A stretch of 64,000 bases of DNA, taken from contig NZ_SOEZ01000076.1 in assembly GCF_004402215.1 (NCBI RefSeq), forward strand, positions 1 through 64,000, read 5' to 3'. The notes below the pieces were generated by a model, which was not told the DNA's origin, made no database searches, and saw only the letters and a program-made list of their open reading frames with translations. Below, piece by piece: positions 4,257-20,859 of the stretch (position 1 is the stretch's first letter; each line of letters begins with the position of its first letter). Made by a program: the position numbers and the translations under genes. The stretch is from Cryobacterium tagatosivorans. Its GTDB lineage: Bacteria; Actinomycetota; Actinomycetes; Actinomycetales; Microbacteriaceae.

Positions 4257-4400
4257 TCGCGGATGCTCGACCACCACGTCACGTTTTTATCACCGATCGG
4301 CGACGTGGGCGTGACGAATCCGGGCCCGGGCCCGTCTTAACAGTGACGGCTGCCCCAGCCCTCGACCGCCCGAATCTGCAGGACGATAGGATTCCCGCAC

Positions 4401-5249
4401 ATGAACCCCAAGGAAACCCCCGTGACGAGCACCGACCGCGCGAGTGCCGAACGACGGAATGCAGCCGCCGTGACTAACCGTGGCCGCAGCACGGAGGTGG
4501 ATGGGCATCAGTTCACCGTGCACTCCATGGCAAGCACCTCGCGTTCTCCGGAGGTGCCGACCTACCTGTTGGTGCACGGGATCGGGGCCTCCCATCGTTA
4601 CTACCGCCGGGTGCAGAAGAGCCTGGCCGTCACCGGGCACACCCTGTCGCTCGACCTTCCCGGTTTCGGCGGTACCCGCAGGCCCGAGCAGCCGCTCGCG
4701 GTCGAAGAATACGGAGCCCTGCTCGGCCGGCTTCTGGATCAGCTCGAGGTGCCGCGGGTGGTCGTGATCGGCCATTCGATGGGCGCCCAATTCGTCACGG
4801 AGCTGGCCCGGCAACGCCCGGATGCCGTCTCTCACCTGGTGCTCATCGGCCCCGTCACCGATCCGCGCCGGGCGACGGCCGTGCAACAGGCGCTGGGACT
4901 GACCCGGGATGTGGTCAAGGAGCCGCCGTCGGGCATCCTGATCGTCTTCCGCGACTACCTCGAGTGCGGCCCGCGCTGGTTCTCCACCGAGCTCGCAGTC
5001 ATGCTCGACTACCGCACCGACCTGGCACTCCGCGAGGTGCGCTCCCCCACCCTCGTGATCCGAGGCGCCAACGATCCCGTCTCGGGCAGCGACTGGTGTG
5101 CCTCCCTGGCCGCTGCCGCGCCGGACGGGCATTTCCTGGAGGTCGCGGGGCACCGCCACCTGGTGCACCACAGCGCCGCCGTGCAGACGGCCGCCTTCAT
5201 CGAGGGGCACGCCCGGCGGCATCCGTCGGTCGCTCATCCGGCCTCATGA
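4401..5249 (+). CDS. Alpha/beta-fold hydrolase
   Basis: The 282-residue protein shows the oxyanion-hole segment LLVHGIG (57-62), the nucleophile elbow GHSMGA with S126, an acid near GANDP and a C-terminal GHRHLVHH histidine cluster: a complete Ser-Asp-His triad. No signal peptide is present, so it is cytoplasmic. The natural ester or haloalkane-like substrate is unknown. Two starts compete. ATG at 4401 lies 8 nt after a TAGGAT box. GTG at 4422 has AAGGAAA five nt upstream. The stop overlaps the next gene by 4 nt, implying translational coupling to a second hydrolase. Confidence 0.8.
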   Translation: MNPKETPVTSTDRASAERRNAAAVTNRGRSTEVDGHQFTVHSMASTSRSPEVPTYLLVHGIGASHRYYRRVQKSLAVTGHTLSLDLPGFGGTRRPEQPLAVEEYGALLGRLLDQLEVPRVVVIGHSMGAQFVTELARQRPDAVSHLVLIGPVTDPRRATAVQQALGLTRDVVKEPPSGILIVFRDYLECGPRWFSTELAVMLDYRTDLALREVRSPTLVIRGANDPVSGSDWCASLAAAAPDGHFLEVAGHRHLVHHSAAVQTAAFIEGHARRHPSVAHPAS

Positions 5250-5995
5250 GGCAACGTCTGCTGAGGCACCGTGTGCTGAGCCCCCGTTTGCTGAGTCGCC
5301 ATCTGCGCGAGGGCAGGTGGTGGATGCTCGACTACGTCTACGCGGCGACCGGGCAGACCCGCGCCTTCCTCTCCCGCGCCCGGCCGGCGGACTTCCGCTC
5401 CGGTTCCGGCGCGCCGATCGTCATCATCCCCGGGGTGTACGAATCCTGGCAGTTCATGCGACCGCTGATCCAGACTCTGCACGACCACGGGCATCCGGTG
5501 CACGTGGTGGCGGCGCTGGGCCGCAACCGGCGTTCTCTGACGGATGCCGCCGCAACCGTGGCCGCCTACCTCGAGCGGGAGAACCTGAACGACGTCATCA
5601 TCGTGGCGCACAGCAAGGGCGGCCTGATCGGTAAACAGCTCATGACGACCGCTGACCCCGACCATCGGGTGCGCGCGATGACCGCGATCAGTGCTCCCTT
5701 CGCCGGCTCCCGCTATGCGCGCTACCTGGTCGTGCCGAGCATAAGTGCCTTCGCCCCTGCCAACGTCGCCCTGCACGACCTCGGCCTGGACCACCGGGTC
5801 AACGACCGGATCGTGTCCATCTACGGAGTGTTCGACCCGCACATCCCCGAGGGCAGCGAACTTGTCGGCGCCCGCAACATCCAGCTCAGCGTCGGCGGGC
5901 ACTTCCGCATACTCGGCGACCCGAGGACCGTGCGGGCTGTCCTCGACGCTGTGACGGATGCCACGGCGCCGGATGCCGCGACGCCGGTGGTCTGA
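5246..5995 (+). CDS. Alpha/beta hydrolase, lipase-like
   Basis: The 249-residue protein starts at an ATG overlapping the previous stop (ATGA). It has the strand-turn IVIIPGVYESW (58-68) and the nucleophile motif VAHSKGG with S123, as in triacylglycerol lipase/PGAP1-like enzymes. A histidine near SVGGHF close to the C-terminus completes a likely triad. No signal peptide is obvious; the N-terminus is arginine-rich. Coupled to the preceding hydrolase, it may act on the same lipid or ester substrate. The substrate is unknown. Confidence 0.75.
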   Translation: MRQRLLRHRVLSPRLLSRHLREGRWWMLDYVYAATGQTRAFLSRARPADFRSGSGAPIVIIPGVYESWQFMRPLIQTLHDHGHPVHVVAALGRNRRSLTDAAATVAAYLERENLNDVIIVAHSKGGLIGKQLMTTADPDHRVRAMTAISAPFAGSRYARYLVVPSISAFAPANVALHDLGLDHRVNDRIVSIYGVFDPHIPEGSELVGARNIQLSVGGHFRILGDPRTVRAVLDAVTDATAPDAATPVV

Positions 5996-6034
5996 CTCCA
6001 CTGACACGAACCGGTTCGGCCACCGTCCCGGAGT

Positions 6035-7066
6035 TCACCCGGCCAAAACGTCGATCAGCACCTTCCCGACGACGCTGCTCTCTACCAGGGCATGGGCATC
6101 CGCCGTGTGCGCCAGGTCCACCCGGTGCAGGGGCAGCCCCGCCTCCTCCCCCACGGCCAGGGCGCCATCGGTGAGGGCGGCATTGATGTCCTCGGCCGCC
6201 GCCCGAATCACGTCGGCGCCCACCGTGTAGAGCAGCAGGAACTGGTAGCGCACGTTGAGGCTGAAGTGATTGCGCACGTCGAGCGTCATCTGGTCGCCGC
6301 CGTTGTTGGCGTAGACGGCGATCGACCCGCGATTGCGGATGACCGCGAGGTCGAGCTGCGAATTCTGGGCGGGGGCGACCTCGACCACGAGGTCAACGCC
6401 ATCCGGGGCAATCCGCCGGATCTGGGCGACGATGTCCGAGTCGGTGTAGTTCAGCACGTGCTGAGCGCCGGCGGCCGTGGCGAGCGCCGCCTTCGCCGGT
6501 CCGCTCACGGTCGTGATGACGGATGCCCCCGCCCACCGGGCGAGCTGGATCGCGGCGTGCCCGACCGCACCGGCACCGCCGGCCACGAGCACGATCTTGC
6601 CGGCCAAGGCGCCCGGGTGAAGCCGGCGCGGCCCGTCCTCGGCCACGGTCAGCGCGCGGTACGCCGTGATCGCCGGCACCCCGAGGCTCGCGCCCTGGTC
6701 GAAGCTCGCATTCGCCGGCAGAGCGAAAACGCGATCGGCGGGCATCACCGAGCGTTCCTGGGCCGTGCCGCTGTGCGCGCGCTGGTACGCGGCGAGCGCC
6801 AGCCAGACCCGGTCGCCGACCATGACGTGCTGCACTCCGGCGCCGACCGCCTCCACGATACCGGCGCCGTCCTGGCCGGGCACGACCTCGTCGAACGGCA
6901 GAGCCTCGCCCGGCGCTGAGCCTCGGCGGGACTTCCAGTCGGTGGGGTTCACCCCGCTGACCACGATCCGCACCCGCACCTCGCCGGCTTCGGGTTCGGC
7001 CACCGGCCGATCGACAAGTTCAAGCACGGACGGGTCACCGGTCTGGCTGTACACAATGGCTTTCAT
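6035..7066 (-). CDS. Zinc-free NADPH:quinone oxidoreductase (MDR family)
   Basis: The 343-residue protein has the medium-chain dehydrogenase layout of zeta-crystallin-type quinone reductases. An N-terminal GroES-like barrel contains SGVNPTDWKSRRG and VPGQDGAGIVEAVG. A Rossmann domain contains GGAGAVGHAAIQLARWAGA. No catalytic or structural zinc cysteines are present. It would reduce quinones or enones with NADPH in the cytoplasm. The start at 7066 (MKAIVYSQTG) matches the family N-terminus; a longer frame to 7114 has no similarity. It converges with the lipase-like gene at 5995. Confidence 0.85.
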   Translation of the reverse strand: MKAIVYSQTGDPSVLELVDRPVAEPEAGEVRVRIVVSGVNPTDWKSRRGSAPGEALPFDEVVPGQDGAGIVEAVGAGVQHVMVGDRVWLALAAYQRAHSGTAQERSVMPADRVFALPANASFDQGASLGVPAITAYRALTVAEDGPRRLHPGALAGKIVLVAGGAGAVGHAAIQLARWAGASVITTVSGPAKAALATAAGAQHVLNYTDSDIVAQIRRIAPDGVDLVVEVAPAQNSQLDLAVIRNRGSIAVYANNGGDQMTLDVRNHFSLNVRYQFLLLYTVGADVIRAAAEDINAALTDGALAVGEEAGLPLHRVDLAHTADAHALVESSVVGKVLIDVLAG

Positions 7067-7522
7067 GTCAGGCACAACGCGCCCGGGGGTGGAATGTTCC
7101 CTGGACTCCAGCAAGCGCGACCGCCACGTGACTGTTGTCGGCGTGCGTGAGTGCCAAACCCGCCCGGATGGCCGACCTCCTCGAGCGGATCAGCACGGGG
7201 AAGGCACCCGCCTCACCCTCACCGAGCAGGGCGTCTACTTCGACGACCTCGACAACACCGAGCAGCGGATCGCGGGCAGGCGGGAGTTGATGGAAGCAAT
7301 TGTGCCGGTCGTCGAGGTAAGGCAACGGCGGGCCAGCCTTGGTCTACGCTGGCCGGGCTCACTGCCAGCCACACGCACTTCGCTCCCCCACTTCGGGACC
7401 GAACGCACCGCAAGACGCCTGGCCTGAATCGTCGGCGTCCAGCCCGACCCCCAAACCTCCCAAACATCACTTCGACCGGCTGTTACGCTGACTCAACTGC
7501 TCAAGTCCATGGGGGGGCTGCG
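7067..7522. other. 456-bp gap holding a gene remnant
   Basis: The gap between the quinone reductase start and the HNH gene holds a truncated SRPBCC copy (7203-7316, listed separately). Before it, 7150-7200 keeps a short readable stretch (SAKPARMADLLERISTGK) that I cannot assign. The part after 7317 reads on without a stop for some distance but resembles nothing. It looks like a recombination junction at the island's left edge. Confidence 0.5.
7203..7316 (+). pseudogene. 3' remnant of an SRPBCC gene
   Basis: The translation begins GTRLTLTEQGVYFDDL and ends VPVVE, matching the last ~38 residues of the SRPBCC protein encoded at 3774-4256. The first 50 bp are identical to 4140-4189, after which the copies diverge (DNTEQRIAGRRELMEAI against EDPELRIEGMREALEMI). 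There is no start and no stop at the homologous point. It is a leftover of a duplicated or second SRPBCC gene, cut where the defence-like island begins. Confidence 0.8.
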
Positions 7523-9013
7523 TTGCCTGTTCTCGCAATCTACGTGCCAAACACTGTTCAGGGCCATCAGAACCTTGAGCACGCAATCAAGACGCGTCGG
7601 TGGGGCTTCCGTAAGGACAGGCCCGAGTACACCGGGGTGGAACCACGTACCCTCGTTCTGATTGCCACCGGATACAGCCACTCAACGATGGGCAACAGCC
7701 CTCGCAAACAGCCTGAGCAGTACGTGCAGGGATCGATCGCCCGCATAATGGTGTTTCGCGCCGAGTCCCGGGTGACTGATCAAAACACGTTCCACTGGCC
7801 CGATGAGGTCCAGGAGCGTCAGGTGAAGTACCCGCACCGACTCACCCTCACGCCGCTCTATGAGATCCATAACGTCGAGCTCGCCAAGATTCCCTTCGAA
7901 CTCGCGGATGCTTTCCGCTATTCGGCTCTCACGCAGGGCGCAGGTAGGCCCGTGTTGGACTCCCCTTTTACTCTCGCGATCGAACAGGGTCAGCTCCCGC
8001 CGGAGGTGTCCCTCAGCCTTTCCCAATGGCCGGAAGACCTTGCCGGCATCGGTGCCTACCTGGCGCGAACCGACAACTCGTGGGTGCAAACACTTCGCGA
8101 GCAGGCCGTGGCTCATGCGGAGATCGCGCATTGGCGTCCGGTCGGCTCCCAGCATGCCCCGCTCCCGATTGGGCCCGGCGAGCCGTACGTGTTTGCGCGC
8201 ACGCCTGAGCCCGGATCCGCAACAGGCATACGCGCGGCAGTTGGTGCCGGAGTCTTCTCGGGCGTCTCTCGGATGCTGCTGTCAGAACTGTGGGAGTGGT
8301 TCCAACTCGAATGCGGGGCGCGCTCACACAGGGAACTCCGCACCCAGTATGCGACTCGCACCGGTGCACCACTTGAAGCCGCAGCCGACCCCGAAGTCGA
8401 AAGCCTGCTACTACGCGATGTTCGGTTCTTCTCTGAAACGGAAGAGCTCACAGTTCAGGTCGATGAGTCGGATTTCGTGCTCAGCGGTGGCAGATATTTC
8501 GACCTCGGCACGTTGGCCAACGAGCATCCTATGATGCGCGCAGTCCTCACCTATTTTCATCCGACGGCCGACGACACGGATGACGAAGTCACTCAGCTTG
8601 TCCTGACTCGCATCCGGGGTCAGGCGAAGCTTGTTGCCCCGCGGCTCGGGCAGGGCGCTTTCCGAGCGATGGTCTCCGAGGCCTACAACCATCGCTGCGC
8701 GCTCACCGGCGAGAAAGTCCGCCCGGTGCTCGAGGCTGCACACATCAAGTCGTTTTCCTCCGGCGGTGAGTACCGAATGGACAACGGGCTTCTCCTCCGC
8801 AGCGACATGCACACGCTCTATGACCGTGGGTACATCTCGTTCGACGTCGACCGAAGCCTCATGGTCAGCCCCCAACTGCGTGAGAAGTTCGGAAATGGCG
8901 ACTGGCTCTACTCACGCGCGGGGACGCCGATTTCGATCCCCACGAAGGCCGTGGATCGTCCGAACCTTGAGTTCCTGGAATGGCACCGGGACAGCGTGTT
9001 TCTCGGCGCTTGA
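7523..9013 (+). CDS. HNH restriction-type endonuclease with probable EVE/PUA-like N-terminus
   Basis: The 496-residue protein ends in a typical HNH nuclease (residues ~375-440): RLGQGAFRAMVSEAYNHRCA, then EAAHIKSF, NGLLLRSDMHTLYDRG. This domain architecture is known from putative restriction endonucleases. The first ~145 residues (IYVPNT...WGFRKD...YPHRLTL...) look like an EVE/PUA-type fold that reads modified bases. The central part (~150-350) matches the domain usually preceding this HNH. A modification-dependent (type IV-like) role is inferred, not shown. The start is a TTG preceded by a G-rich ribosome site (ggggggg); an earlier in-frame start is not supported by similarity. No methyltransferase is nearby. 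Confidence 0.75.
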   Translation: MPVLAIYVPNTVQGHQNLEHAIKTRRWGFRKDRPEYTGVEPRTLVLIATGYSHSTMGNSPRKQPEQYVQGSIARIMVFRAESRVTDQNTFHWPDEVQERQVKYPHRLTLTPLYEIHNVELAKIPFELADAFRYSALTQGAGRPVLDSPFTLAIEQGQLPPEVSLSLSQWPEDLAGIGAYLARTDNSWVQTLREQAVAHAEIAHWRPVGSQHAPLPIGPGEPYVFARTPEPGSATGIRAAVGAGVFSGVSRMLLSELWEWFQLECGARSHRELRTQYATRTGAPLEAAADPEVESLLLRDVRFFSETEELTVQVDESDFVLSGGRYFDLGTLANEHPMMRAVLTYFHPTADDTDDEVTQLVLTRIRGQAKLVAPRLGQGAFRAMVSEAYNHRCALTGEKVRPVLEAAHIKSFSSGGEYRMDNGLLLRSDMHTLYDRGYISFDVDRSLMVSPQLREKFGNGDWLYSRAGTPISIPTKAVDRPNLEFLEWHRDSVFLGA

Positions 9014-9052
9014 GAAAAGCCCGGAGACGGCTTCGTGTCGGAGCTCTCGTGC

Positions 9053-9415
9053 TCAACCTAGGTCGTTGTACTTAGTCGAGACCCCTTTGGCCTTCTCAAT
9101 GGGGTACTTCGCCCCGTTCTTGCCCAGCTTCGCGTTGAAGGCCTCTTCGACATCAATCCCGAGGCCGTCGGCCAGCTGAAGGAGATAGGCCAGCACGTCA
9201 GCGATTTCGTCGCGCGCTGCTTCGCGGTTGGCGGGGACCGTCATCCAGTCCTGGATATTGTCCGCTTCGACCCACTGGAGCAGCGCGTTCAGCTCCCCCA
9301 CCTCACCCGTGAGCGCCATGACGAGGTTCTTCGTCGAGTGGAACTGTTGCCAGTCGCGCGCTCGCGCGAACGCGCGCAGGTTGGTCTGCATCTCAGGTAT
9401 CCCCATGCTCCCCAT
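9053..9415 (-). CDS. MazG-like nucleotide pyrophosphohydrolase
   Basis: The 120-residue protein has the all-alpha NTP pyrophosphohydrolase signature: EVGEL near 37-41 followed by DEIADVLAYLLQLAD near 69-83, giving the Mg-binding E-x-x-E...E-x-x-D arrangement. Family members convert (d)NTPs to NMP plus pyrophosphate, either as house-cleaning enzymes or to starve phage of nucleotides. AGGAG sits six nt before the ATG at 9415; an ATG three codons inside is also possible. It lies between two defence-like genes and is divergent from the HEPN-STAND gene, so a defence role is plausible but unproven. Confidence 0.8.
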   Translation of the reverse strand: MGSMGIPEMQTNLRAFARARDWQQFHSTKNLVMALTGEVGELNALLQWVEADNIQDWMTVPANREAARDEIADVLAYLLQLADGLGIDVEEAFNAKLGKNGAKYPIEKAKGVSTKYNDLG

Positions 9416-9633
9416 TCTGTCTCCTGGGCGCGTGCTCAGCCGCCTCGGGTCCGTGACACTCAGTCAGAAACCCAAGACTCGTCGCATGGGGGCTCGCGAC
9501 GGGCCCACATTCGCCGGCACGGAACACCCCCCGAATTGGTGCCACAGCCGGGTCGCGCAGATGGAACCTCCGGAAAAAGGCCCCGATACTCTGTTGAGAC
9601 GTGGAGTCACGGCCCGCCCGGAAGGGGCTTGGA

Positions 9634-12138
9634 ATGAGTTTCAACGCAACGAGATTGACATGTTTTGCACTCATCGCGGCGATCGAAGGCGATTGCCGCG
9701 AGTCGATATTGAATCTGCAATCGGGCTCCGCCGAAGCGACCGTCACGTGGCCGGAAAACGCTGCCCGTCGTGCGCACGAGCGACTGGAACGTGAAAAGGG
9801 GGTAAGGCCCGATCCCTCGCGCAGCGCGCTCGTGGACTACCTAGATTTTGCAGATGGTCATGAAATTCTGCTTGCAAACAAATCTCTGCTCACCGATGAC
9901 CATCGGAAATCGCTTTCCGCAGCAGCACCGCACCTCGGACGGATTGTCGCGATCCGGAATCGAGTTGCGCATACTCGACCGATGGAGATTGATGATCTCG
10001 TGGAGCTTTACGACGTTGCCCGAGACCTGGTTCGCCTGTCGCGTGAAAGCTGGAAGACAATCGATGAGACGCTCCAGCGACTTGAACGAAACCCCGAATT
10101 CGTCCTCGGCCTGACGATTCAGCTGCCGGCTGATCCTTCGTCACCCATATCGCACAATCTACCGATTCCGGATTTTGACGAAACGGGATTCTTCGGGCGC
10201 GCCAAGGAACTTCAACGGATAAAGAAGGCTCTCTTGGGCCCATACCCGGTCGTATCCATCTTGGGCGATGGCGGACTCGGCAAGACCTCACTTGCGCTCA
10301 AGGCCGCGTACGATCTGCTGGACGACTCCCGAACAGAGTTTGAGGCAATTGTCTGGGTGTCTGCCAAGGCCACCACGCTCACCTCCAGCGAAATTCGAAA
10401 CATTGGCGGCGCAATCCAGGACTCGCTTGGCCTGTTCGAAGCTGCGGCGACTGAGCTTGGTGCCGTGGCTTCCGCTGGAAACGACCCCATGAGCGAGGTA
10501 CTGCAATACCTTGAAAGCTTTCGCGTCCTCCTGATACTGGACAACCTGGAGACTGTAACCGATCAGCGTCTGCGCGACTTTCTACTCGAACTTCCAAACG
10601 GCAGCAAAGTGTTGATCACCACTCGGATCGGGCTGGGAATTGAGAACCCCGTGAAACTTGAACCCCTCTCGGCGGCGGAATCTCGAACGCTGCTGCGGGC
10701 GCTCGCCTCGATTCGAAACGTCCCGACATTGAAGTCATTGGATGAGGACGGAATGGCCATCCTGGTCGCGGCGGTCAAAGGTCACCCGCTGTACATCAAA
10801 TGGCTGGTTGCCGGCGTTCAAGCCGGGAGAAGGCCTTCAGAGCTGGTCAACGACAACAGCCTGCTCCTCGAGTACTGCATGTCGAATGTCTACGACCAAT
10901 TGAGCGGAGATTGTCGACAGGTTCTACAGTCAATGCAGGTCATGAGGGGCGCACGAGGACAAGGCGAACTGGCATACCTCAACGAGATGTCGGCAGATCA
11001 AATACAAGCCACGCTCCTGGAGCTCATGACAACGAACTTCGTTGCGATGCGGCAATCCAAAGTCCATTCGCTGGAGGCGAGTTACGAGACCTCTGACTTT
11101 GCGAGCCAGTACCTGGCGCGGACCAACCCGGTCCTGCAGGCGTTCAGGGAACACATCACAGCTCGATCGACTGACTTAGCCAAAATCGGACTGCGACTGA
11201 CTGCCGACGGGCGGGCGAAGAAATATGATTCGCACACTGTCGATGTTCGAGGGCAGCATGATGTTCCGGCCGCTCGCTTGCTCATTGATGCGTTCAAACG
11301 CGCGGATGAAGGCAGCGTTGACGCAGCGATTGATCTCTGCCGTGAAGCTCAGACACTTTCGCCGACGTATCACGAAGCCTGGAGAGTCGAAGCGACGATA
11401 CAGGCAAAGCGACAGGATCGCGATGCCGCTATTTCTGCATTCGAACGCGCACATGAGATCGCCCCCGACTCGGCCGTCGCCAGCTACCATTTCGGTGCCT
11501 ACTTGGCAGGGGGCGCCAGCGAACCCGCCTGGGGCTTGAGAGTTCTGCAGGCCTCCGCCAGCGCAGGAGGAACCGGGCCACAGCTCCTCGCGGAAATTGC
11601 AGCAACCCACCTTCTACTAGGGAACTACATCGAATGCCTGGATACCTACCTGAGTCTCGCGCAGTCATCTCAGCCAGGGGCCGACAAGTTGGCGATTTTG
11701 CACTTGGCCTTGCGAGGTGGCTCCCAGGGGGCGGTCGCGTTGCGCGAGCGCGGCGAACTCTCCAACTCGCTGCAGGTAATTGAAGCCGCGTTCGGAATCG
11801 CCACGGAGATCGACGTTCAACATATTGATGCAGAAGCAACAGACTGGCTTCTCGACCTCGGGTATTCCACGTTCGCCGTCGCAACAGCAGCCGAGGGTGA
11901 CGAGTACCTTGTCAAGCGAGCAAACGAGTACGGCTCAGCGATCGCAGACCGCGTTCGAGTCGTCGATTCGGAAGCGATGACTCGTGTGTTCGGCTATGTG
12001 AAGAATGTTGAAGAACTCAAGCATTTCGGCTTTGTAAGGCATGCCGGCGCGGATTACTTCTTCCACCACAATGACCTTGCCCGACGCCAGGACTGGCCCG
12101 ACATGCTCCCGGGTGTTCGCGTGTGCTTCCAAATTTGA
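9634..12138 (+). CDS. HEPN / NB-ARC STAND ATPase / TPR / cold-shock-domain protein
   Basis: The 834-residue protein has four parts. Residues 1-160 are helical and carry R108-NRVA-H113, the R-x4-H motif of HEPN ribonucleases (Swt1-like). An NB-ARC/STAND ATPase follows, with Walker A GDGGLGKTS (211-219), Walker B VLLILDN (298-304) and sensor VLITTR (326-331), then a winged-helix region. Residues ~560-740 read as TPR-like repeats. Residues 785-834 match a cold-shock domain with both RNA-binding motifs (KHFGFV, DYFFHHND). STAND proteins oligomerise on sensing a trigger and release an effector; here the effector is probably the HEPN RNase and the cold-shock domain an RNA sensor or guide. Start chosen for the GGAAGGGG ribosome site. 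Codon use is more AT-rich than neighbours. Confidence 0.8.
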   Translation: MSFNATRLTCFALIAAIEGDCRESILNLQSGSAEATVTWPENAARRAHERLEREKGVRPDPSRSALVDYLDFADGHEILLANKSLLTDDHRKSLSAAAPHLGRIVAIRNRVAHTRPMEIDDLVELYDVARDLVRLSRESWKTIDETLQRLERNPEFVLGLTIQLPADPSSPISHNLPIPDFDETGFFGRAKELQRIKKALLGPYPVVSILGDGGLGKTSLALKAAYDLLDDSRTEFEAIVWVSAKATTLTSSEIRNIGGAIQDSLGLFEAAATELGAVASAGNDPMSEVLQYLESFRVLLILDNLETVTDQRLRDFLLELPNGSKVLITTRIGLGIENPVKLEPLSAAESRTLLRALASIRNVPTLKSLDEDGMAILVAAVKGHPLYIKWLVAGVQAGRRPSELVNDNSLLLEYCMSNVYDQLSGDCRQVLQSMQVMRGARGQGELAYLNEMSADQIQATLLELMTTNFVAMRQSKVHSLEASYETSDFASQYLARTNPVLQAFREHITARSTDLAKIGLRLTADGRAKKYDSHTVDVRGQHDVPAARLLIDAFKRADEGSVDAAIDLCREAQTLSPTYHEAWRVEATIQAKRQDRDAAISAFERAHEIAPDSAVASYHFGAYLAGGASEPAWGLRVLQASASAGGTGPQLLAEIAATHLLLGNYIECLDTYLSLAQSSQPGADKLAILHLALRGGSQGAVALRERGELSNSLQVIEAAFGIATEIDVQHIDAEATDWLLDLGYSTFAVATAAEGDEYLVKRANEYGSAIADRVRVVDSEAMTRVFGYVKNVEELKHFGFVRHAGADYFFHHNDLARRQDWPDMLPGVRVCFQI

Positions 12139-12178
12139 CCTCACGAGTCCGAAGGGAAGCCGAGCCGCCAACGTGAGG
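12139..12178. terminator. Inverted repeat after the STAND gene
   Basis: Arms cctcacg (12139-12145) and cgtgagg (12172-12178) flank a 26-nt loop, directly after the STAND stop codon and in the gap between convergent genes. Pairing is short for the loop size, so this is a weak candidate. Confidence 0.3.
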
Positions 12179-12238
12179 TTGATGAAATAGTGCTTGGCCG
12201 GGTGACTGTCGCAGTCCCTTGCCCCTAGCTGGGGCCGG

Positions 12239-12823
12239 TCATGGCATCTGGAAACGCCTAACAAACTCTCGAACGTCAGGAAACTCCTGTCCGGGAGCAA
12301 AATGGTGACACAGTCCGAGCTTGGCGGGCGTGCCATCGGCGCTCACAACCACGGTTGGGATAGCACTGCTTTGCCAGAGGCCCACAACGCCTGGATTGTC
12401 GTCGATCGCCAGACCGATAGCGTTTGTGCGCGATAGGGAGGCGAGTATGTCCGACTTGACGAGCACACCGGAACGATTGTCACGGTTCCTACGAAAATGA
12501 ATCTGGTCATACGGAACTCCGTGTTCGGCGAGCCAAAGAGTTGTGAGAAAGGACCAACGCTCCTCTCGCGCCGTCACGATCCCGATTGCCCACCCTTCAA
12601 CTGAAAGCAGACGAACAAGCTCAACCACCCATGCGTTCGCTGGGCAGTCGATCGATTGAGAATGGAACCGTCCGAAGTCGCGCTTGCCGGAAAATCCTTC
12701 CAGCAGGGGATCAACGTGATGTCGAATTGTGCGCACATCACATAGAGTCCCGTCTACGTCGCAGACGACCATCCGAGGCTTTGCGAGCGCGATTTGCACC
12801 GGTCCCCCACTCAGCTCATTCAC
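12239..12823 (-). CDS. HAD phosphatase of the T4 polynucleotide kinase (Pnkp) type
   Basis: The 194-residue protein is a HAD phosphatase with the catalytic DVDGT motif (D-x-D near 22-26) and IVTARE (motif II). It also has K-S-D-I-L (motif III lysine) and AIDDNPGVVGLW (motif IV). The insert GKRDFGRFH followed by a proline and a W-L-x-x-H-G-V-P-Y-D segment is characteristic of the 3'-phosphatase half of T4 Pnkp; the kinase half is absent. It would remove 3'-phosphates from RNA or DNA ends, making them ligatable. It lies 60 nt downstream of the GHKL ATPase gene on the same strand, so the two probably form an operon. Confidence 0.75.
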   Translation of the reverse strand: MNELSGGPVQIALAKPRMVVCDVDGTLCDVRTIRHHVDPLLEGFSGKRDFGRFHSQSIDCPANAWVVELVRLLSVEGWAIGIVTAREERWSFLTTLWLAEHGVPYDQIHFRRNRDNRSGVLVKSDILASLSRTNAIGLAIDDNPGVVGLWQSSAIPTVVVSADGTPAKLGLCHHFAPGQEFPDVREFVRRFQMP

Positions 12824-12883
12824 TGTGTCATTCTGCGCCCAATGGGCGTCGACTCTCAGCTCCGTCGATGCACCGCAATGCTC

Positions 12884-14836
12884 TCACACGAGTTTCGCAT
12901 CATCACGGTTCTCGAGAACGCCGAGGGCGGACAACCCTCCTGGCAGTGCGTGCGCCACCAACAGCTCCGCAATGACGTTCTTCAGGGAGATCACGTTGAA
13001 ATGGGTTGAACTAGCATCGTCGTGCCAAATGTAAGACACGGCGCGAAAGGGCCGGGCATGCTTCCATTTCCCGTATGTCGGTTCAAGCCGTCCGACCCGC
13101 AAGTTCAGGTCCGTGCAATCCCAACAGACGACAACGTCAACCTCAGACGGAATCTTGACTTTTGCTTCGAAGTCGCTGATCAAAGAATCGAAGGACACTT
13201 TGAATTCAAGGACGGCATTTTCCTTCGGGGCGTAGTCGGGAGAAACCGCCGCCAGGGATCCCGTGGGCGTCATCGCATCATCACCGATCGTGGCCAAGGC
13301 GTCGTAACGGTTGTAACCGGAGAGTGCTTTCATGGCAAATCCCGGCAGCTCGGCCGTGGTCACGAGTGCGGTCCAGAGTGCTATTACCTCCTGCTCATCA
13401 TTCGGGTCCACCCGCGCTGGCGGTGTGGCACCAAGCGCCGCGAAGAGCGCAGGCAGCGAGGAATTCCCGGCCCGCTCGTCCACGCTTTTGATCCACTCTG
13501 CGAGGTCAGTCTCGATTGGAACCCGGTCTTTGATCTTCAAAGCCCAGCGATAATCCTTGAGCTTCGTGACCACTCTCTGGTTCACCTTATTTATCGCGTG
13601 CAGTATTTTCTCGTTGGATACAAATTTTCTGCCTGTGTCCAGTTCGAGTTCGCTGAAGCCCAAAACAATGTGCGTCTGCCTATCAAGCCCTTGATCACTA
13701 GTCAACGACAGGTCTAAGGGGCGGCCCTGCGGTGCGCCGTCCACCGCAAGACGCGCGCCATATCTAACCGCAGGGCCCCGGGTTCCCATGTTCTTTTTCA
13801 CTTGCTTCATGACATCGGTGCTGTAGCAGAGGTAGCCACGAACCCAATGCAGATGCTTCAGTAGAAGGGTCTTCTCATCGTCGTCCAGCACCATTTCTTC
13901 TATGAACTCGGGGCCGGACCACTCATGGAAAACTGCCTGATGCCGACGAGCATGCTTCAAATTGTGCTGGCTAACCGGAGTGCTGTCGATGGTGTTCGTA
14001 TCGACGCCAACAACAAACACAGTCTCCGGAAATGGATAGCCCAACTTCCCTTGATCGGGGGCGTAGACATCTCGAATGAACGGCTCCTCGAATACGACGT
14101 CATCCCCGCGATCAACAATGAACTGCACTTTCATAGGATTCGACTGCTGAACCAAGGTAGATGTCGCCAGGCCAAGAGGGGTCTTCGCACAAAGAAAACC
14201 AGCCCAGTAGCGAAGTTCCTTCTCAATGCCATCAGTCACGATGACGAGATTATCGAGGCTCTTTGGGTCTGAGCCTGAGTGGAACTCGAAATAGACGCCG
14301 GTCCCCCGGGTGATCCCGTCTGCCAGTCCCTTGACGAGTTGGGGTGCCGAAAAACTGTCGTCCACGGTCGGCTGCGGCTTTTCGCTGTCAGTCACCCAGT
14401 CATTCGTGTGCAGAATCGTGCGATCCGTGGGCAAACCTTCTTTGACGGATCGGATGGCAATGTGGTCGGATACGGCCACGATGTAGGACATCCCGACTCC
14501 CTTGTATCCAATTGACTTCCCGTGTTTCTTGCCAAAGGAGTAACCCGGAATGAATACGCGATCCACCAGTTCCTCGCTCATACCCACGCCATCGTCTTGC
14601 ACGTAGAGGTAGTGAGCATTGTCCGTCCGGCGCCCAACGACAATAGTGAGATTCCCGCCGTCGGGGTTCGCGATCGGGTCTCGAAGGGCGATGGCATCGA
14701 TGGCGTTCTGGAGCACCTCAGTGAATACATCCGATTCATCGGAGTAAGAGGTCGTCAGGTTCATCAGATGCTTTCGCACCAGTTCTCGCTGGTGCTCTAC
14801 GTCCAATGAGCCAATTCCGAAAATATCCACTGACAT
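12884..14836 (-). CDS. GHKL/MORC-like ATPase with C-terminal nuclease-like domain
   Basis: The 650-residue protein opens with a Hsp90-type GHKL ATPase: N-box EVLQNAIDAI (40-49), G1 DDGVGM (81-86), and a lysine-containing glycine loop SIGYKGVGMS (108-117) of the MORC kind. The middle (~200-500) resembles no family I recognise. The C-terminal ~110 residues contain LEFK (E544, K546) and DVVVCWD (near 567-573), patterns seen in PD-(D/E)xK-like nuclease domains of bacterial MORC relatives; this part is inference. Such ATPases clamp DNA and occur in defence islands. Start 14836 is chosen for GGGGGA four nt upstream; ATG 14845 is an alternative. The Pnkp-like phosphatase follows. Confidence 0.75.
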   Translation of the reverse strand: MSVDIFGIGSLDVEHQRELVRKHLMNLTTSYSDESDVFTEVLQNAIDAIALRDPIANPDGGNLTIVVGRRTDNAHYLYVQDDGVGMSEELVDRVFIPGYSFGKKHGKSIGYKGVGMSYIVAVSDHIAIRSVKEGLPTDRTILHTNDWVTDSEKPQPTVDDSFSAPQLVKGLADGITRGTGVYFEFHSGSDPKSLDNLVIVTDGIEKELRYWAGFLCAKTPLGLATSTLVQQSNPMKVQFIVDRGDDVVFEEPFIRDVYAPDQGKLGYPFPETVFVVGVDTNTIDSTPVSQHNLKHARRHQAVFHEWSGPEFIEEMVLDDDEKTLLLKHLHWVRGYLCYSTDVMKQVKKNMGTRGPAVRYGARLAVDGAPQGRPLDLSLTSDQGLDRQTHIVLGFSELELDTGRKFVSNEKILHAINKVNQRVVTKLKDYRWALKIKDRVPIETDLAEWIKSVDERAGNSSLPALFAALGATPPARVDPNDEQEVIALWTALVTTAELPGFAMKALSGYNRYDALATIGDDAMTPTGSLAAVSPDYAPKENAVLEFKVSFDSLISDFEAKVKIPSEVDVVVCWDCTDLNLRVGRLEPTYGKWKHARPFRAVSYIWHDDASSTHFNVISLKNVIAELLVAHALPGGLSALGVLENRDDAKLV

Positions 14837-14982
14837 ATGGTCCCCCATCGTTGCTGTCGCCTGGGGCTTGTGGTTTATTAACCGATGAGCATTCCCCAAC
14901 CCTTGAATCGTAATGCTTTGGAGCGAAATGAAGGTCCCCAAAAAGCCGACGGGGACCAGATGGTCTGAACCCCTTGGGGGAC

Positions 14983-15135
14983 CTTGAACCCACGGACGGA
15001 AACGAATCGAGGGCCTCCGATGGCGTTAGCGCCCACGATGGTTAGTGGGAACGATTCCGCCATCCGGGACCAGTTCCGTAAGGAAGGGAGACTTCGGTTC
15101 TTGATCGTGAATAGAACCACACACCGCGCCGGGTA
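14983..15135 (-). pseudogene. Decayed 3' fragment of the UvrD-like helicase gene
   Basis: Read on the minus strand, this stretch gives VLFTIKNRSLPSL...PLTIVGANAIGGPRFVSVRGF, clearly related to the helicase C-terminal segment VLLVTIKNRESPFL...ITLTNAIGEALDSI encoded near 20935-21090. At DNA level the blocks around tcgagggcctcc and cggttcttgatcgtga align with small indels. The zinc-finger part is lost and no start exists. The rest of the 14837-15243 gap holds no gene I can support. The fragment marks the island's right edge and implies duplication or recombination between here and 20.9 kb. Confidence 0.8.
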
Positions 15136-15232
15136 CGTGACAGGACCACTAGGAGTGTCTCCACTCCTCGGCTCGCGTGTCGGCCTTGGCGGCGCGCATC
15201 CCTGGCGGAATCGACCAGTGCGAAATTCCCCT

Positions 15233-15257
15233 GGGACAGGCTGCTATACCCTGTCCC
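15233..15257 (-). terminator. Inverted repeat at the end of sbcC
   Basis: gggacag (15233-15239) and ctgtccc (15251-15257) pair across an 11-nt loop. The hairpin overlaps the last codons and stop of sbcC. It is a plausible but modest terminator for the sbcDC operon. Confidence 0.4.
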
Positions 15258-18216
15258 GCCCCGCTTCGATCGTGCTGTGCCCCTGGTCGGTGACGACGAT
15301 GCTGAGCTTGGCCGGGATCTGCTCCTTCATCGAGTCGACGTGGCTGATCAGGCCGATCGTCCGGCCGCCGGCGCGGAGGGTATCGAGCGTGCTCATCGCC
15401 GTTTCGAGGGTTTCGCTGTCGAGGGAGCCGAAGCCCTCGTCGACGAAAAGCGTGTCCAGGGTGATGCCGCCGGCCTGACTCGTGACAACCTCTGCCAGGC
15501 CGAGCGCCAGGGCGAGGGAGGCGAGGAACGTCTCGCCTCCGGACAGCGAGTTCGTCGCCCTCGTGCGGCCGGTGAACACGTCGCGAATGCCGAGGCCGAG
15601 GCCGGACTGGGTGGCGCGGAATTCCAGGGAGTCGTCGTGCTCCAGCGTGTAGCGCCCGCTTGTCATCGTGCGCAGCCGCGTGTTCGCGGCGGCGACGATC
15701 TCTTCGAGCTGGGCGGCGAGCACGTAGGTTTCCAGGCGGATCCGCTTCGTGTTCGGCTCGTCGCCGTGCACGACGTCGGCGAGCTGGCGCACCTGCGTCT
15801 GCGTCGTCAGCAGCGCAGCGGATGCCGCGAACTGCGCCGTGACCTCGGCCACGAGGGCGCCGAGCTGGGTGACGCGCTCGTCCACCGAGCTGCGGGCGGT
15901 GATGGCGTCATCACGCGCCACGCTCGCGAGGTCGAAGGCCTCGCGAGCCGGATCCCGGTTGATCGGTTCGGCGGGCAGGTCGGCGAGTTCGGGGTCGGCG
16001 AGCGCTGCCCGCGCCGCGGCGATCTGATCGTCATGGGTGCGCAGGGCCGATTCCCGGCGCTGGGCCTCGGCATCGCCAACCCGGGCCGCTTCGGCAGTCG
16101 CCTCGTCGGCGAAGTCCTCCTGCAACAGCTGCATGGTCATTGCCGCGATCGCGGCGACGCGTACGGTGCCGCGCTCTCGGCTGACGCCCAGGGCCTCATA
16201 GAGGGCGCGTGCGGCGCCGAGTTCGTCGTTCAGTCGGTCCACGTGTTCGGTGACCGTTTCGTAGTCGCCGCGCTGGGCGGTCACGCGATGGACGAGTGCT
16301 TCGCGGTGAGCGGCCCGGTCGGTGTGCTCGGCGGCCGAGGTATCGCGAGTGGCACGGAGTCCGATGAGGCCGGTGGTCGCGTCTGCCAACCGGCCACGCA
16401 GGCCGACCAGATCCTCCACCAGCCGGGCCAGGAGCCTGGCTGCGGTTTCGGAATCCTCAAGTGCGGTTCGGGCGGTCGCTCGCTCCGCCAGGAGTTCCTC
16501 GACGGAGCGGTTCCCGGCCCGGGCCTCGGCCTGCGCCAGGCGCGTGCGTGCGTCCTGAACGGCGGTGCCGGCCTCGGCCAACGCCTGCTGCCGCAGGGTC
16601 ACTGCTTTCCGGGCGGAGGTGAGGTCACCCTCGGAGACCGGGTCAGCCTCGCCGATGCTTGGGGCGGGGTGGCTCTCCGAGCCGCAGACCAAGCACGGGG
16701 TGCCGTCCTCCAGCTCGGACGCGAGCTCGGCGGCGTACCCGGCAAAGCGCCGGGTAAGCAGGGCGTCGTAGTGGGCCGCGGCGGCGGCATTCTCGCCGCT
16801 CGCGACGAGTTCGGCCTGGGATGCTTCGAGCACCTCGGCGGCGTGAACCACTACGGATTCTGCGGCCGAGAGGGCGGTTTCGGCTCGTTCGAGGGCCGCG
16901 GCGGCCTCGTCCTTGCGCGCGGCCCCGAGTGCGGCCGCGGCGTGTTCGACGCCGGCGGACTCGATCTGCTGCGGGAGGGCATCGATCACTGCCTGGGCGT
17001 CGTCGAGAGCTGCCGTGTGCTCCTCGACCAGACCGTGCAGCCGGGTGAGCTCGAGGTCGAACTCGGGAAGCTTCTGTTCGTCGCCGAGCGCATCGGCGAG
17101 GGTCCCGAGCCGACCGAGCAGCGCATCTGTGACGAGCTTGAGCGACGCATGGGTCTCAGGCTCGGCACCGGCCGGGCGGAAGTGCTGCCAGGCGGCGCGG
17201 GCATCCGTTTCGTCGGTCTGCGCCTCCTCGAGGGCGACGGTCGCCTGCTGCCCGGCACGGATCTGCGGCCAGACGCGGGCGGCCCGGGCGGCCGCGTGGA
17301 GGGCCGTTCGCTCGGCGGCGATGGCTTCTTCGCGATCGGTGAGCGCGGCCAGCTGGGCGAGGGCGGTGTCCCGGCGGGCCTGGCGCCGCGCAACTTCTCC
17401 CAGCACCTGGTGATGGTCGGCCGCGGCAGTGAATTCGGCGGCGGCCAGCTCGGCGCGCTTGGTTGCCTCGTGGAGCTGTCGCTCGAGGTCGGTCAGGCCG
17501 GAGGTGAACCAGTCGAGGCCCGGGTCTTGGGGCACGTCGTCGTCGCCCAGCCGCAGCTGGTTCGCCGCGATCCGGGCCCGGTCGGCGATGGCTCGCTGGA
17601 CGTCGCCGAGCTGGCTGTCCAGTTTTTTGCGCCGAGCGATCAGGGATTGCTCGAGTTGATCGAAGCGGGACGTGCCGAAGAGGGTGCGCAGCACGGCGCG
17701 ACGTTCGTCGGTCTTGGCGAGCAGGAACTTCTGGAAGCGGTTCTGCGCCAGCAGGATGACCTGGAGGAACTGGTCCTCCTTCAACGGGAGGATCCGGGCC
17801 AGCTCGTGGCCGACATCCACCGGCTTCGCCGCGACGCCCTGCCAGTCGTCGCCGTCCTTGACGAACAGCCGGACCTCGGGCTGGGACGTGGTGGTGCCCT
17901 CGCCGCGTTTCTTCGGCCGTTCGAATTTGGGGGTTCGGAAGATGCGGTAATCGCGCTCGTTCATGCTGAAGTCGAGTTCGACGAAGCTGGGGTCATCCGG
18001 TTCGCAGTGATCGCTGCGCAGCTGCAGCTCGGTGCCGTCGTAGCGCGGCACGTGGCCGTAGAGGGCGAAGCAGATGGCGTCGAGGATGCTGGACTTGCCG
18101 GCGCCGGTCTTGCCGGTGATCAGGAAGATGCCGTCGCTGTCGAACTTCTCGAAGTCGATCAGCTGCTCGTTCTTATACGGGCCGAAGCCGGCCAGTCTGA
18201 CGCGTTTGATCTTCAT
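15244..18216 (-). CDS. sbcC: DNA double-strand-break repair ATPase SbcC (Rad50-like)
   Basis: The 990-residue SMC-like ATPase shows Walker A GKTGAGKSSILDA near residue 34 and long charged coiled-coil arms. The central zinc hook is PCLVCGSESHP (Cys-x-x-Cys), the ABC signature NSLSGGETFLAS, and Walker B TLFVDEGFGSLD near the C-terminus. With SbcD it forms the Mre11-Rad50-type complex that cuts hairpins and protein-blocked DNA ends. The start ATG at 18216 overlaps the sbcD stop (ATGA). Long upstream frame extensions are shadows of sbcD. Long perfect palindromes in this window are potential substrates of this nuclease. Confidence 0.95.
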   Translation of the reverse strand: MKIKRVRLAGFGPYKNEQLIDFEKFDSDGIFLITGKTGAGKSSILDAICFALYGHVPRYDGTELQLRSDHCEPDDPSFVELDFSMNERDYRIFRTPKFERPKKRGEGTTTSQPEVRLFVKDGDDWQGVAAKPVDVGHELARILPLKEDQFLQVILLAQNRFQKFLLAKTDERRAVLRTLFGTSRFDQLEQSLIARRKKLDSQLGDVQRAIADRARIAANQLRLGDDDVPQDPGLDWFTSGLTDLERQLHEATKRAELAAAEFTAAADHHQVLGEVARRQARRDTALAQLAALTDREEAIAAERTALHAAARAARVWPQIRAGQQATVALEEAQTDETDARAAWQHFRPAGAEPETHASLKLVTDALLGRLGTLADALGDEQKLPEFDLELTRLHGLVEEHTAALDDAQAVIDALPQQIESAGVEHAAAALGAARKDEAAAALERAETALSAAESVVVHAAEVLEASQAELVASGENAAAAAHYDALLTRRFAGYAAELASELEDGTPCLVCGSESHPAPSIGEADPVSEGDLTSARKAVTLRQQALAEAGTAVQDARTRLAQAEARAGNRSVEELLAERATARTALEDSETAARLLARLVEDLVGLRGRLADATTGLIGLRATRDTSAAEHTDRAAHREALVHRVTAQRGDYETVTEHVDRLNDELGAARALYEALGVSRERGTVRVAAIAAMTMQLLQEDFADEATAEAARVGDAEAQRRESALRTHDDQIAAARAALADPELADLPAEPINRDPAREAFDLASVARDDAITARSSVDERVTQLGALVAEVTAQFAASAALLTTQTQVRQLADVVHGDEPNTKRIRLETYVLAAQLEEIVAAANTRLRTMTSGRYTLEHDDSLEFRATQSGLGLGIRDVFTGRTRATNSLSGGETFLASLALALGLAEVVTSQAGGITLDTLFVDEGFGSLDSETLETAMSTLDTLRAGGRTIGLISHVDSMKEQIPAKLSIVVTDQGHSTIEAGRDRV

Positions 18217-19773: not shown

Positions 19774-20859
19774 ATGCCCGTAGAGATCGGTCTGTGGAGA
19801 GTGGATGACAAGCCCGTCCGGATCTCCCCACATGCTATGCCGCTGGAAGCCAAGCTCGAACAGCTCATTTTGGACGACCCGGAGATTCTTGAGTCCAAAC
19901 TGCTTCTACTCGGCAGTCAGGTACTCACGAAATACGGAAAATACATTGACCTGCTCGGAGTTGATTCGGAGGGTGTCCTTCACATTCTCGAGCTTAAGAG
20001 GGACCGGACGCCGCGCGAGGTTGTGGCGCAGGCACTCGATTATGCCTCATGGGTGCAGGAGCTCGGCAATGATGACATCCGAAACATTTTCGACACGAAC
20101 CGCCCGGGTGACAACTTCGACGAAGCGTTCGCCAAGAGATTTGACGGCGCGCCAGTTCCTGATGAACTCAATCCCAGTCACGTCATGACGATCGTCGCTA
20201 GCGACTTGGATCCCGGGACTGAACGCATCGTCGCCTATCTGAATAAGTCGCACGGTGTCCCAGTCAACGTCATGATCTTTCGATACTTCACCGACAACGG
20301 CCACGAGTACCTTGCGCGAACGTGGCTCATCGACCCGGGGATCCCCGTTGCTTCGACCGGCGGTGGTAAAGGCAAGTCAACTAAAGCTAACTGGAACGGA
20401 CTTGACTGGTACGTCTCTTTTGGCGTTGACGGAGGTTCTCGCGATTGGGCTGACGCCCGAAGCTACGGTTTCGTGTCTGCCGGCGGCGGCGACTGGTATT
20501 CCAGGACCCTCAGGGGCCTTCCGGAAGGGGGCCGCATTTTTGTCCATGTGCCGCAGCACGGATATGTCGGTGTTGGCATAGTCAAAGGGCACGCGATGCC
20601 AGCAGACGAGGTAATTCTCGACGTTGGAGGGCCGCGACACTTCCGTTCGCTGGATTTGCGAGGAACGTACCGCCATCCAGAGGTCAGTGAAGCAGCCGAC
20701 GCAGCGGAATACGTAGTTCCAGTCGAGTGGATAGAGACGGTTCCTCTCGAAGAGGCGCACTGGCGTGTGGGCATGTTCGCCAATCAGAACAGCGCCTGCA
20801 AGCTTCGAAATCAATTCACACTTGACGAGCTCTCCAAGGCGTTCGAACTCACCGACTGA
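19774..20859 (+). CDS. NucS-like (DUF91-type) nuclease domain protein
   Basis: The 361-residue protein begins with a region like the catalytic domain of NucS/DUF91 nucleases. It reads IDLLGVDSEGVLHILELKRD (about 57-76), then TPREVVAQALDYASWV: the D...E-x-K...Q order of a PD-(D/E)xK nuclease. The C-terminal ~150 residues (SFGVDGGSRDW...YGFVSAGGGDWYSR...GRIFVHVPQHGYVGVG) form a separate domain. A PUA/YTH-like nucleic-acid-binding fold is my guess. GGAGGAG lies before the ATG. It is AT-richer than sbcD beside it and ends 6 nt from the convergent helicase. A role in DNA repair or restriction is inferred from the nuclease motif and neighbours. Confidence 0.7.
   Translation: MPVEIGLWRVDDKPVRISPHAMPLEAKLEQLILDDPEILESKLLLLGSQVLTKYGKYIDLLGVDSEGVLHILELKRDRTPREVVAQALDYASWVQELGNDDIRNIFDTNRPGDNFDEAFAKRFDGAPVPDELNPSHVMTIVASDLDPGTERIVAYLNKSHGVPVNVMIFRYFTDNGHEYLARTWLIDPGIPVASTGGGKGKSTKANWNGLDWYVSFGVDGGSRDWADARSYGFVSAGGGDWYSRTLRGLPEGGRIFVHVPQHGYVGVGIVKGHAMPADEVILDVGGPRHFRSLDLRGTYRHPEVSEAADAAEYVVPVEWIETVPLEEAHWRVGMFANQNSACKLRNQFTLDELSKAFELTD

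Follow-up and report, generated by a model that had tools for sequence, protein, structure and literature searches.

A GHKL ATPase with a predicted nuclease domain beside a stand-alone polynucleotide phosphatase in a defence hotspot of Cryobacterium tagatosivorans

The gene pair

The window studied here is a 64,000-nt stretch of Cryobacterium tagatosivorans DNA (contig NZ_SOEZ01000076.1), and all coordinates are positions within it unless a locus is named. It carries two adjacent genes on the reverse strand. The first (12884-14836) encodes a 650-residue GHKL ATPase with a C-terminal domain predicted to be of the PD-(D/E)XK nuclease type, as judged from the open reading frame (ORF), Pfam and a structure model. 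Its start is taken as the ATG at 14836, whereas the mechanically called ORF extends to a TTG at 14941. The second (12239-12823) encodes a 194-residue stand-alone phosphatase that matches the Pfam family HAD_PNKP, has no kinase domain, and aligns with Pnkp1 and T4 Pnkp. It lies 60 nt downstream of the ATPase gene on the same strand. Inspection of this gap (12824-12883) revealed no clear ribosome-binding site before the presumed GTG start codon of the phosphatase at 12823, and this start is therefore uncertain. Promoter- and terminator-like sites in the region 12000-15400 are no more frequent than in shuffled sequence.

In an earlier reading of this DNA (the original prediction) the pair was proposed to be a new defence or repair system, comprising a MORC-like GHKL ATPase with a nuclease-like C-terminus and the free-standing phosphatase half of T4 Pnkp. 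The layout is as it described, with two genes on one strand separated by 60 nt, and so are the basic identities of the 650-residue GHKL ATPase and of the phosphatase, of which only the HAD part is matched.

The ATP-binding domain and its family

The ATPase matches HATPase_c (9.2e-8) and HATPase_c_3 (3e-6), both over the Pfam cut-offs. The placement of HATPase_c_3 locates the GHKL (Bergerat) ATP-binding core at 14372-14728 on the reverse strand, comprising the E40/N44/D47 box, D81-G83-G85 and G110-K112-G113-V114-G115. These motif residues, E40, N44, D47 and D81 among them, are invariant in all 68 sequences of an alignment that includes the window. It was built from 60 of the 80 family loci described below, six of seven viral loci, L018 and the window protein; four loci with split or truncated genes (L093, L098, L103 and L105) were omitted, as were 16 more to limit its size. 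The N box, the DxGxG and G-x-KGxG motifs and the fold together place the protein in the GHKL superfamily.

A structure model of the whole ATPase has a mean predicted local distance difference test score (pLDDT) of 82.4 and a predicted template modelling score (pTM) of 0.72. Residues 10-435 match Hsp90 (Z = 18.7), MORC3 (Z = 18.1) and topoisomerase VI-B (Z = 17.7) about equally well, with Z values from 15 to 18.7 across the best 50 structural matches. The term 'MORC-like' is thus apt for the fold and fails as a specific label, since Hsp90 and topoisomerase VI-B fit just as well. All three share the fold with the window ATPase over this region, at 8-16% identity in the alignments listed, and differ from it in the C-terminus. 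MORC proper is marked by a GhXhhpXXRhl motif in the S5 domain, according to a passage in PMC2292703.

Relatives of the ATPase are widespread and distant. The best 80 of 99 confirmed loci from 84,980 species are 21-28% identical to it. The scan relied on main-clade peptide patterns, and may have passed over close kin of the window ATPase if they lack these. These 80 loci span archaea, Pseudomonadota, Bacteroidota, Chloroflexota, Bacillota, Cyanobacteriota, Planctomycetota and others. Further relatives occur on seven viral contigs (23-25% identity), in four plasmid records (about 22%; three with at least 80% query coverage), and in one other genome of the host family (G057), 28-30% identical over segments. 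No closer kin emerged from 281 genomes of the phylum, where a single match at 24% was found beyond the window's own genome, and a search of 394 genomes of the class with an early ATPase profile returned the own genome only. Phage records yielded 24 matches, all with less than 80% query coverage; the best 10 of the 24 cover 14-45% and are partly rIIA genes. Viral contigs were also scanned with single proteins, namely the ATPase, the phosphatase and L120 (a comparison protein introduced below), and no relatives came up. The annotated records examined call members of the ATPase family 'hypothetical' or 'ATP-binding protein'.

On a maximum-likelihood tree the window ATPase sits at the end of a branch of 7.62 changes per column, where the median end branch is 0.35. 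On motif and architecture we assign the protein to the family, in which it is an extreme outlier on a very long branch.

The C-terminal domain

The predicted nuclease domain occupies residues 436-650 (12884-13531, reverse strand) and contains the series E481-Q482 ... Y511-D512 ... E544-x-K546. All six residues are invariant in the 68 aligned sequences. Three residues singled out in the original prediction, N44, E544 and K546, are thereby each fully conserved. Folded alone, the domain gives a model with a pLDDT of 77.7 and a pTM of 0.78, the core of which runs helix (E481/Q482)-strand-strand (starting just after D512)-strand (E544/K546)-helix-strand. In the numbering of the isolated domain, E481 lies in helix 46-58, D512 (residue 77) immediately precedes strand 78-82, and E544 and K546 fall in strand 103-113. 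The characteristic order of PD-(D/E)XK enzymes is helix-strand-strand-strand-helix-strand, and the modelled domain carries the E-D-ExK residues on just such a core.

Structural comparison is less decisive. The best matches using VIA-align 2 reach Z = 4.5 (2vld, with a root-mean-square deviation of 3.0 over 86 residues, and 5gke). Eight of the top 10 are named nucleases (NucS and EndoMS type, BsaWI, Nt.BspD6I, DdmD, MspJI, EcoT38I and McrBC), all with Z values of 4.5 or below, in a range that the tool calls common. A protein of unknown function and a TBP-interacting protein take ranks 4 and 5, and further down come unrelated chains, acetyl-CoA carboxylase for example. In our view the motif and the modelled topology provide good support for a nuclease, while fold similarity taken alone (Z of 4.5 or less) is indecisive. 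The earlier guess of a nuclease-like C-terminus is probably right, being borne out by the invariant residues and the core topology and only weakly by the structural matches.

Comparison with known GHKL nucleases

Does this correspond to any described system? The ATPase-phosphatase pair did not appear in any paper found in the portions of the literature searched on GHKL nucleases, on polynucleotide phosphatases in defence, or on both. The original prediction that the system is undescribed survives to that extent for the pair; it does not for the ATPase half, which varies a GHKL-nuclease design already described.

The restriction enzymes BbrUII and HgiDII (NF050001) resemble the window protein in length and architecture, with a GHKL ATPase followed by a C-terminal domain of nuclease type. 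Two positive controls, L120 and L122, are members of NF050001, scoring 797 and 830 bits. With 16.5 bits where the cut-off is 550, and over the ATPase part only, the window protein was rejected as a member; six relatives from its family gave no match at E <= 0.001. In profile comparison only the GHKL domain of the two families aligns. M.HgiDII and M.BbrUII are described in a passage of PMC5867850 as 5-methylcytosine methyltransferases, the former recognizing GTCGAC. A DNA cytosine methyltransferase gene lies directly upstream in three of five plasmid relatives of L120 and directly downstream on the other strand in one; L122 is the one of these five that was scored against NF050001. No DNA methyltransferase was found beside the window ATPase among the cassette genes scanned with Pfam, a set smaller than all the ORFs of the window. 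Linkage to a methyltransferase was also considered as a rule of the family and discarded, as the cytosine methyltransferases of L019 and L020 match only 8/93 and 7/93 loci, themselves included.

Iyer et al. (2008; PMC2292703) placed MORC and paraMORC GHKL proteins in restriction-modification systems. Their paraMORC3 group, as outlined in that paper, combines GHKL and S5 domains with a C-terminal restriction-fold domain bearing E-D-ExK; it is laterally mobile, and a subset stands alone. The window family fits paraMORC3 in architecture and in the E-D-ExK motif, the comparison being with the 2008 description only.

A second relative in design is VcSduA, which a 2025 Vibrio paper presents as a single-gene anti-phage protein with GHKL and PD-(D/E)xK (DUF4263) domains (PMC12137116). 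According to the same source, activity was abolished in ATPase variants and in nuclease variants alike, and the proposal made there is that the nuclease is under the control of the ATPase. The corresponding Pfam family, SduA_C/DUF4263 (PF14082), was not matched by the window protein at E <= 1, nor by 10 family members at E <= 0.1, and the C-terminal profiles of the window family and of L120-type proteins (the latter from only six sequences) did not align (E = 0.86). Membership of GHKL-Shedu was rejected on these grounds, VcSduA itself being compared by description only. The test is a weak one, because L120 itself matches PF14082 weakly (3.5e-5, 24.5 bits against a cut-off of 27). A search of 44 ATPase-bearing genomes with PF14082 came back wholly empty; the family was matched in 6 of 185 genomes of another class, one of the matches being L120.

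The defence neighbourhood of the ATPase family

The four nearest neighbours of each ATPase gene were compared with PADLOC models at E <= 1e-10 for 33 of the 80 loci, selected because their contigs are long. A control was taken about 100 kb away in the same genomes, and one simple length rule defined the genes of both sets. The 128 neighbouring proteins match 168 PADLOC families and the 131 control proteins match 36, numbers that are not gene counts because the models overlap in both sets, so that one protein may have many matches. The best 25 of the 168 include models for GajA, GajB, HamA, HamB, MzaC, mad3, SngC, AriA and BrxH. Of the best 25 control families, 16 are single-member GajB (UvrD-helicase) models; RtcR, SspA and DndA are also present. 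Pfam analysis of the 128 neighbours shows Phage_integrase (four), Resolvase (three), HamA (two), Z1 (one) and DUF4420 (one) beside ordinary genes. An association with known defence genes, which the original prediction had proposed to check, is seen for the ATPase family, and we regard this family as defence-associated, widespread and unnamed.

Do the two genes belong together?

A phosphatase gene was found near none of 91 other ATPase-relative loci (tblastn, E <= 1e-3). In all 93 loci were searched, and the only matches were the window locus and one that had been fetched for its phosphatase. The query was the window phosphatase, and the flanks extended to at most 8 kb (6 kb for viral contigs), or less at contig ends. 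Among the 91 loci L021 matches the ATPase domain only, the gene of L020 is split, and some loci are close to one another.

The genomes give the same picture. Taking the ATPase and phosphatase sets of 398 host-family genomes as one draw, the ATPase occurs in two (E <= 1e-8) and the phosphatase in 13, and both are present only in the window's own genome. HAD_PNKP was found in 2 of 39 ATPase-bearing genomes, in one of them over the cut-off. Moreover, when ORFs are called by a simple rule, 14 of the 80 loci have a same-strand gene within 100 nt downstream of the ATPase, and so a tight operon is unusual for the family, though some of the 80 stop short of the next gene. The original prediction had proposed recurrent co-occurrence as the test of a single two-gene system. 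Neither the 91 other loci nor the 398 genomes provide it beyond the window itself, and in the sets examined such a system is not supported by linkage. The sub-lineage of the window ATPase is nevertheless a sample of one, and there may be a pairing peculiar to it.

The phosphatase and its company

The phosphatase matches HAD_PNKP (PF25109) at 3.9e-13, scoring 50.2 bits against a cut-off of 27.6, and can be aligned with the phosphatase regions of both Pnkp1 (4xrp) and T4 Pnkp (1ltq). Its motifs DxDGT, T-x-R, D/R/K and DD are those of the family, with D22, D24, T84, R86, D115, K123, D141 and D142 kept in at least 90% of 11 phosphatases. With 194 residues and no match to a kinase domain it is not a bifunctional Pnkp of the T4 type. 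It resembles the stand-alone HAD_PNKP proteins of actinobacteria and phages, which likewise lack the kinase and correspond to the other half of T4 Pnkp, the phosphatase. Homologues among the best 30 of 2398 phage records are 40-44% identical; the 2398 include partial matches, with query coverage of 80% or more in 312. Identity to the phosphatases of 12 other host-family genomes is 39-44%.

What accompanies these relatives? In three of the 12 (L131 6605-10406; L142 6701-10498; L143 3013-6756) the phosphatase gene forms an operon with genes for a Dam-family (D12) methyltransferase and a DGQHR/DndB-like protein of 758-763 residues. Compared with L131, the methyltransferases of L142 and L143 are 63-64% identical and the DGQHR proteins 68-72%. 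The L131 DGQHR protein has weak matches to an Hjc-like domain at its N-terminus and to HEPN_Swt1 (E = 0.0044) at its C-terminus, with the sequence RNKISH; the RNxxxH motif was not found in the DGQHR proteins of L142 and L143. This operon is possibly an undescribed modification-based defence system. Elsewhere, the L146 phosphatase adjoins a TIR gene. In mycobacteriophage Shaobing (L187 2980-4717) the HAD_PNKP homologue lies 100 nt upstream of a gene for an RtcB-like RNA ligase, which suggests a phage RNA-repair pair. An RtcB motif was present near the phosphatase in 2 of 16 loci checked (Shaobing and L151), two of the 16 representing the same place, and two other phage loci had no annotated RNA ligase within 2.5 kb.

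Thus the actinobacterial and phage relatives are found with Dam and DGQHR proteins, with RtcB, with TIR or in other places, in contrast to the window gene, and beside none of them was a GHKL nuclease found. Given such varied partners, RtcB included, the phosphatase is best viewed as a mobile end-healing enzyme, with a role on RNA likely in at least some places. By eye, we also observed a broken copy of the phosphatase near an integrase-like ORF in the genome G006, and several other relatives in ordinary-looking places.

Interpretation

With moderate confidence we favour a reading in which the ATPase is a self-contained, ATP-gated, restriction-like defence nuclease and the phosphatase a separate mobile end-healing enzyme resident in the same hotspot. 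The GHKL ATPase and the S5/transducer domain would form an ATP-dependent dimer clamp, and the clamp would control the C-terminal PD-(D/E)XK endonuclease, an arrangement borrowed from the proposal for VcSduA. The endonuclease would cut invading DNA, presumably when triggered by a phage. The phosphatase would act on RNA or DNA, probably as a 3'-phosphatase or a 2',3'-cyclic phosphatase, and would have come to sit downstream of the ATPase within the hotspot without being a required partner of its family.

Several points weigh against this. The traits of the family may not hold for the window ATPase, because its end branch is so much longer than the median. A Foldseek search of the isolated C-terminal domain against the PDB gave zero matches at E <= 0.001, as did the domain profile against PDB sequences at E <= 5, and the nuclease fold therefore rests on motifs, modelled topology and weak structural matches. 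In the neighbourhood comparison the overlap between models affects the two totals, and the commonest control model (mad2, three members) is also a defence one. Lastly, the ATPase, the phosphatase and the neighbouring HEPN-like/NB-ARC gene are alike in GC content (55.1, 56.6 and 57.6%), which fits their having been acquired together and is mild evidence that they form a unit.

That neighbour is central to the alternative that survives best, though we consider it unlikely: the phosphatase might serve the HEPN-like/NB-ARC gene or general RNA repair, processing the 2',3'-cyclic or 3'-phosphate ends left by HEPN-type RNases, with its adjacency to the ATPase incidental. The gene (9601-12138, forward strand) is a possible third partner. 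It encodes an 845-residue protein with NB-ARC (1.6e-12), TPR and C-terminal cold-shock-like regions, a weak HEPN_Swt1 match (E = 0.005) and the motif RNRVAH at residue 119. The similar GC content, the phosphatase operon of L131 that ends in a DGQHR protein with its own weak HEPN_Swt1 match and RNKISH, and the RtcB-like ligase gene and the RtcB motif near the phosphatases of Shaobing and L151, respectively, all point this way. However, both HEPN matches are under the Pfam cut-off, RNxxxH is missing from the other two DGQHR proteins, and the RtcB motif is confined to two of the 16 loci, with no annotated RNA ligase near two further phage phosphatases. Moreover, the HEPN-like/NB-ARC gene is convergent with the phosphatase gene rather than co-directional.

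The original prediction itself, that the two enzymes make up one system in which the phosphatase acts to heal nuclease-made ends, to limit self-damage or to block phage repair, now seems improbable. The common strand, the 60-nt spacing, the similar GC content of 55.1 and 56.6%, the shared position in an accessory defence cassette and the origin of the ATPase in an unsampled sub-lineage argue for it. They are opposed by the lack of the phosphatase at 91/91 other loci, by the single genome in 398 that holds both genes, by HAD_PNKP in only 2/39 ATPase-bearing genomes, and by the different partners kept by the nearest phosphatase relatives. Chemistry points the same way: the ends left by a restriction-like nuclease should carry a 3'-OH, and a 3'-phosphatase would not be needed for them.

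More speculatively still, the ATPase-nuclease, the phosphatase and the HEPN-like/NB-ARC gene, all of 55-58% GC, might have been acquired jointly as a layered defence module of a lineage that is unsampled elsewhere. The GHKL-gated DNase would strike invader DNA, the HEPN protein would cut RNA as a back-up, and the phosphatase would edit ends against phage or host ligases of the RtcB type. We think this a long shot. Were it true, the phosphatase would be an anti-repair subunit of defence, a role that was not found in the literature searched. Least probable is a housekeeping role for the ATPase in DNA repair or as a chaperone-like protein tied to SbcCD, which its place after sbcD and sbcC on the same strand (with a 407-nt gap) could suggest and which we reject because relatives (E <= 1e-8) occur in only 2/398 host-family genomes against SbcC in 56/57 of the genus, the GC content is about 15 points below that of sbcC, and unrelated genes replace it at this site in another genome (G051).

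Returning to the self-contained nuclease, its family makes a good candidate for a single-gene defence of the GHKL-nuclease type that has no name as yet, with BbrUII and GHKL-Shedu as its sisters in design. Should it work in defence, this would suggest that restriction-like enzymes arose more than once by the joining of the GHKL clamp to different nuclease domains. The operon of phosphatase, Dam-family methyltransferase and DGQHR protein may be a better place than the window in which to ask what polynucleotide phosphatases do in defence.

The cassette and its neighbours

Both genes lie within a low-GC accessory cassette (7317-15243, the left border being approximate) between an oxidoreductase gene and sbcC, delimited by GC content and by comparison with G051. 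The GC content of 7151-15243 is 58.5%, compared with 67.8-70.6% in the flanking genes measured. Besides the pair and the HEPN-like/NB-ARC/TPR gene the cassette holds an HNH gene (61.9% GC) and a MazG-like gene (61.4%), and beyond it lie sbcC, sbcD and a NucS_C-like gene. The pair does therefore sit in a cluster of defence genes, as was originally described.

The nearest relative, G051 (SbcC 91% identical), retains sbcD, sbcC and the oxidoreductase gene, and about 8 kb of other genes separate the last two. Among these (L133 8878-15830) are genes for an SMC/AAA protein, a 221-residue protein, a SIR2-like protein and an Mrr-type endonuclease, which look like other defence systems. Of 57 genomes in the genus, 56 have SbcC, the window's own among them. 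Around sbcC in six other genomes of the genus we found matches to SbcC and SbcD only. From this comparison we take the site to be a replaceable defence hotspot.

Three smaller observations concern the surroundings. The C-terminus of the HNH protein (7317-9013) resembles restriction endonucleases that bind phosphorothioated DNA (NF045808, 75 bits against a cut-off of 180). Beside sbcD, a 361-residue protein (19774-20859) has at its N-terminus a match to the C-terminal domain of the NucS nuclease (E = 5.9e-5, just under the Pfam cut-off). Finally, a 114-nt direct repeat, 85% identical between its copies at 4140-4253 and 7203-7316, flanks the genes at 4290-7114. Sequence matching this repeat in G051 lies beyond the oxidoreductase gene, and the left border of the hotspot may therefore have been rearranged through it.

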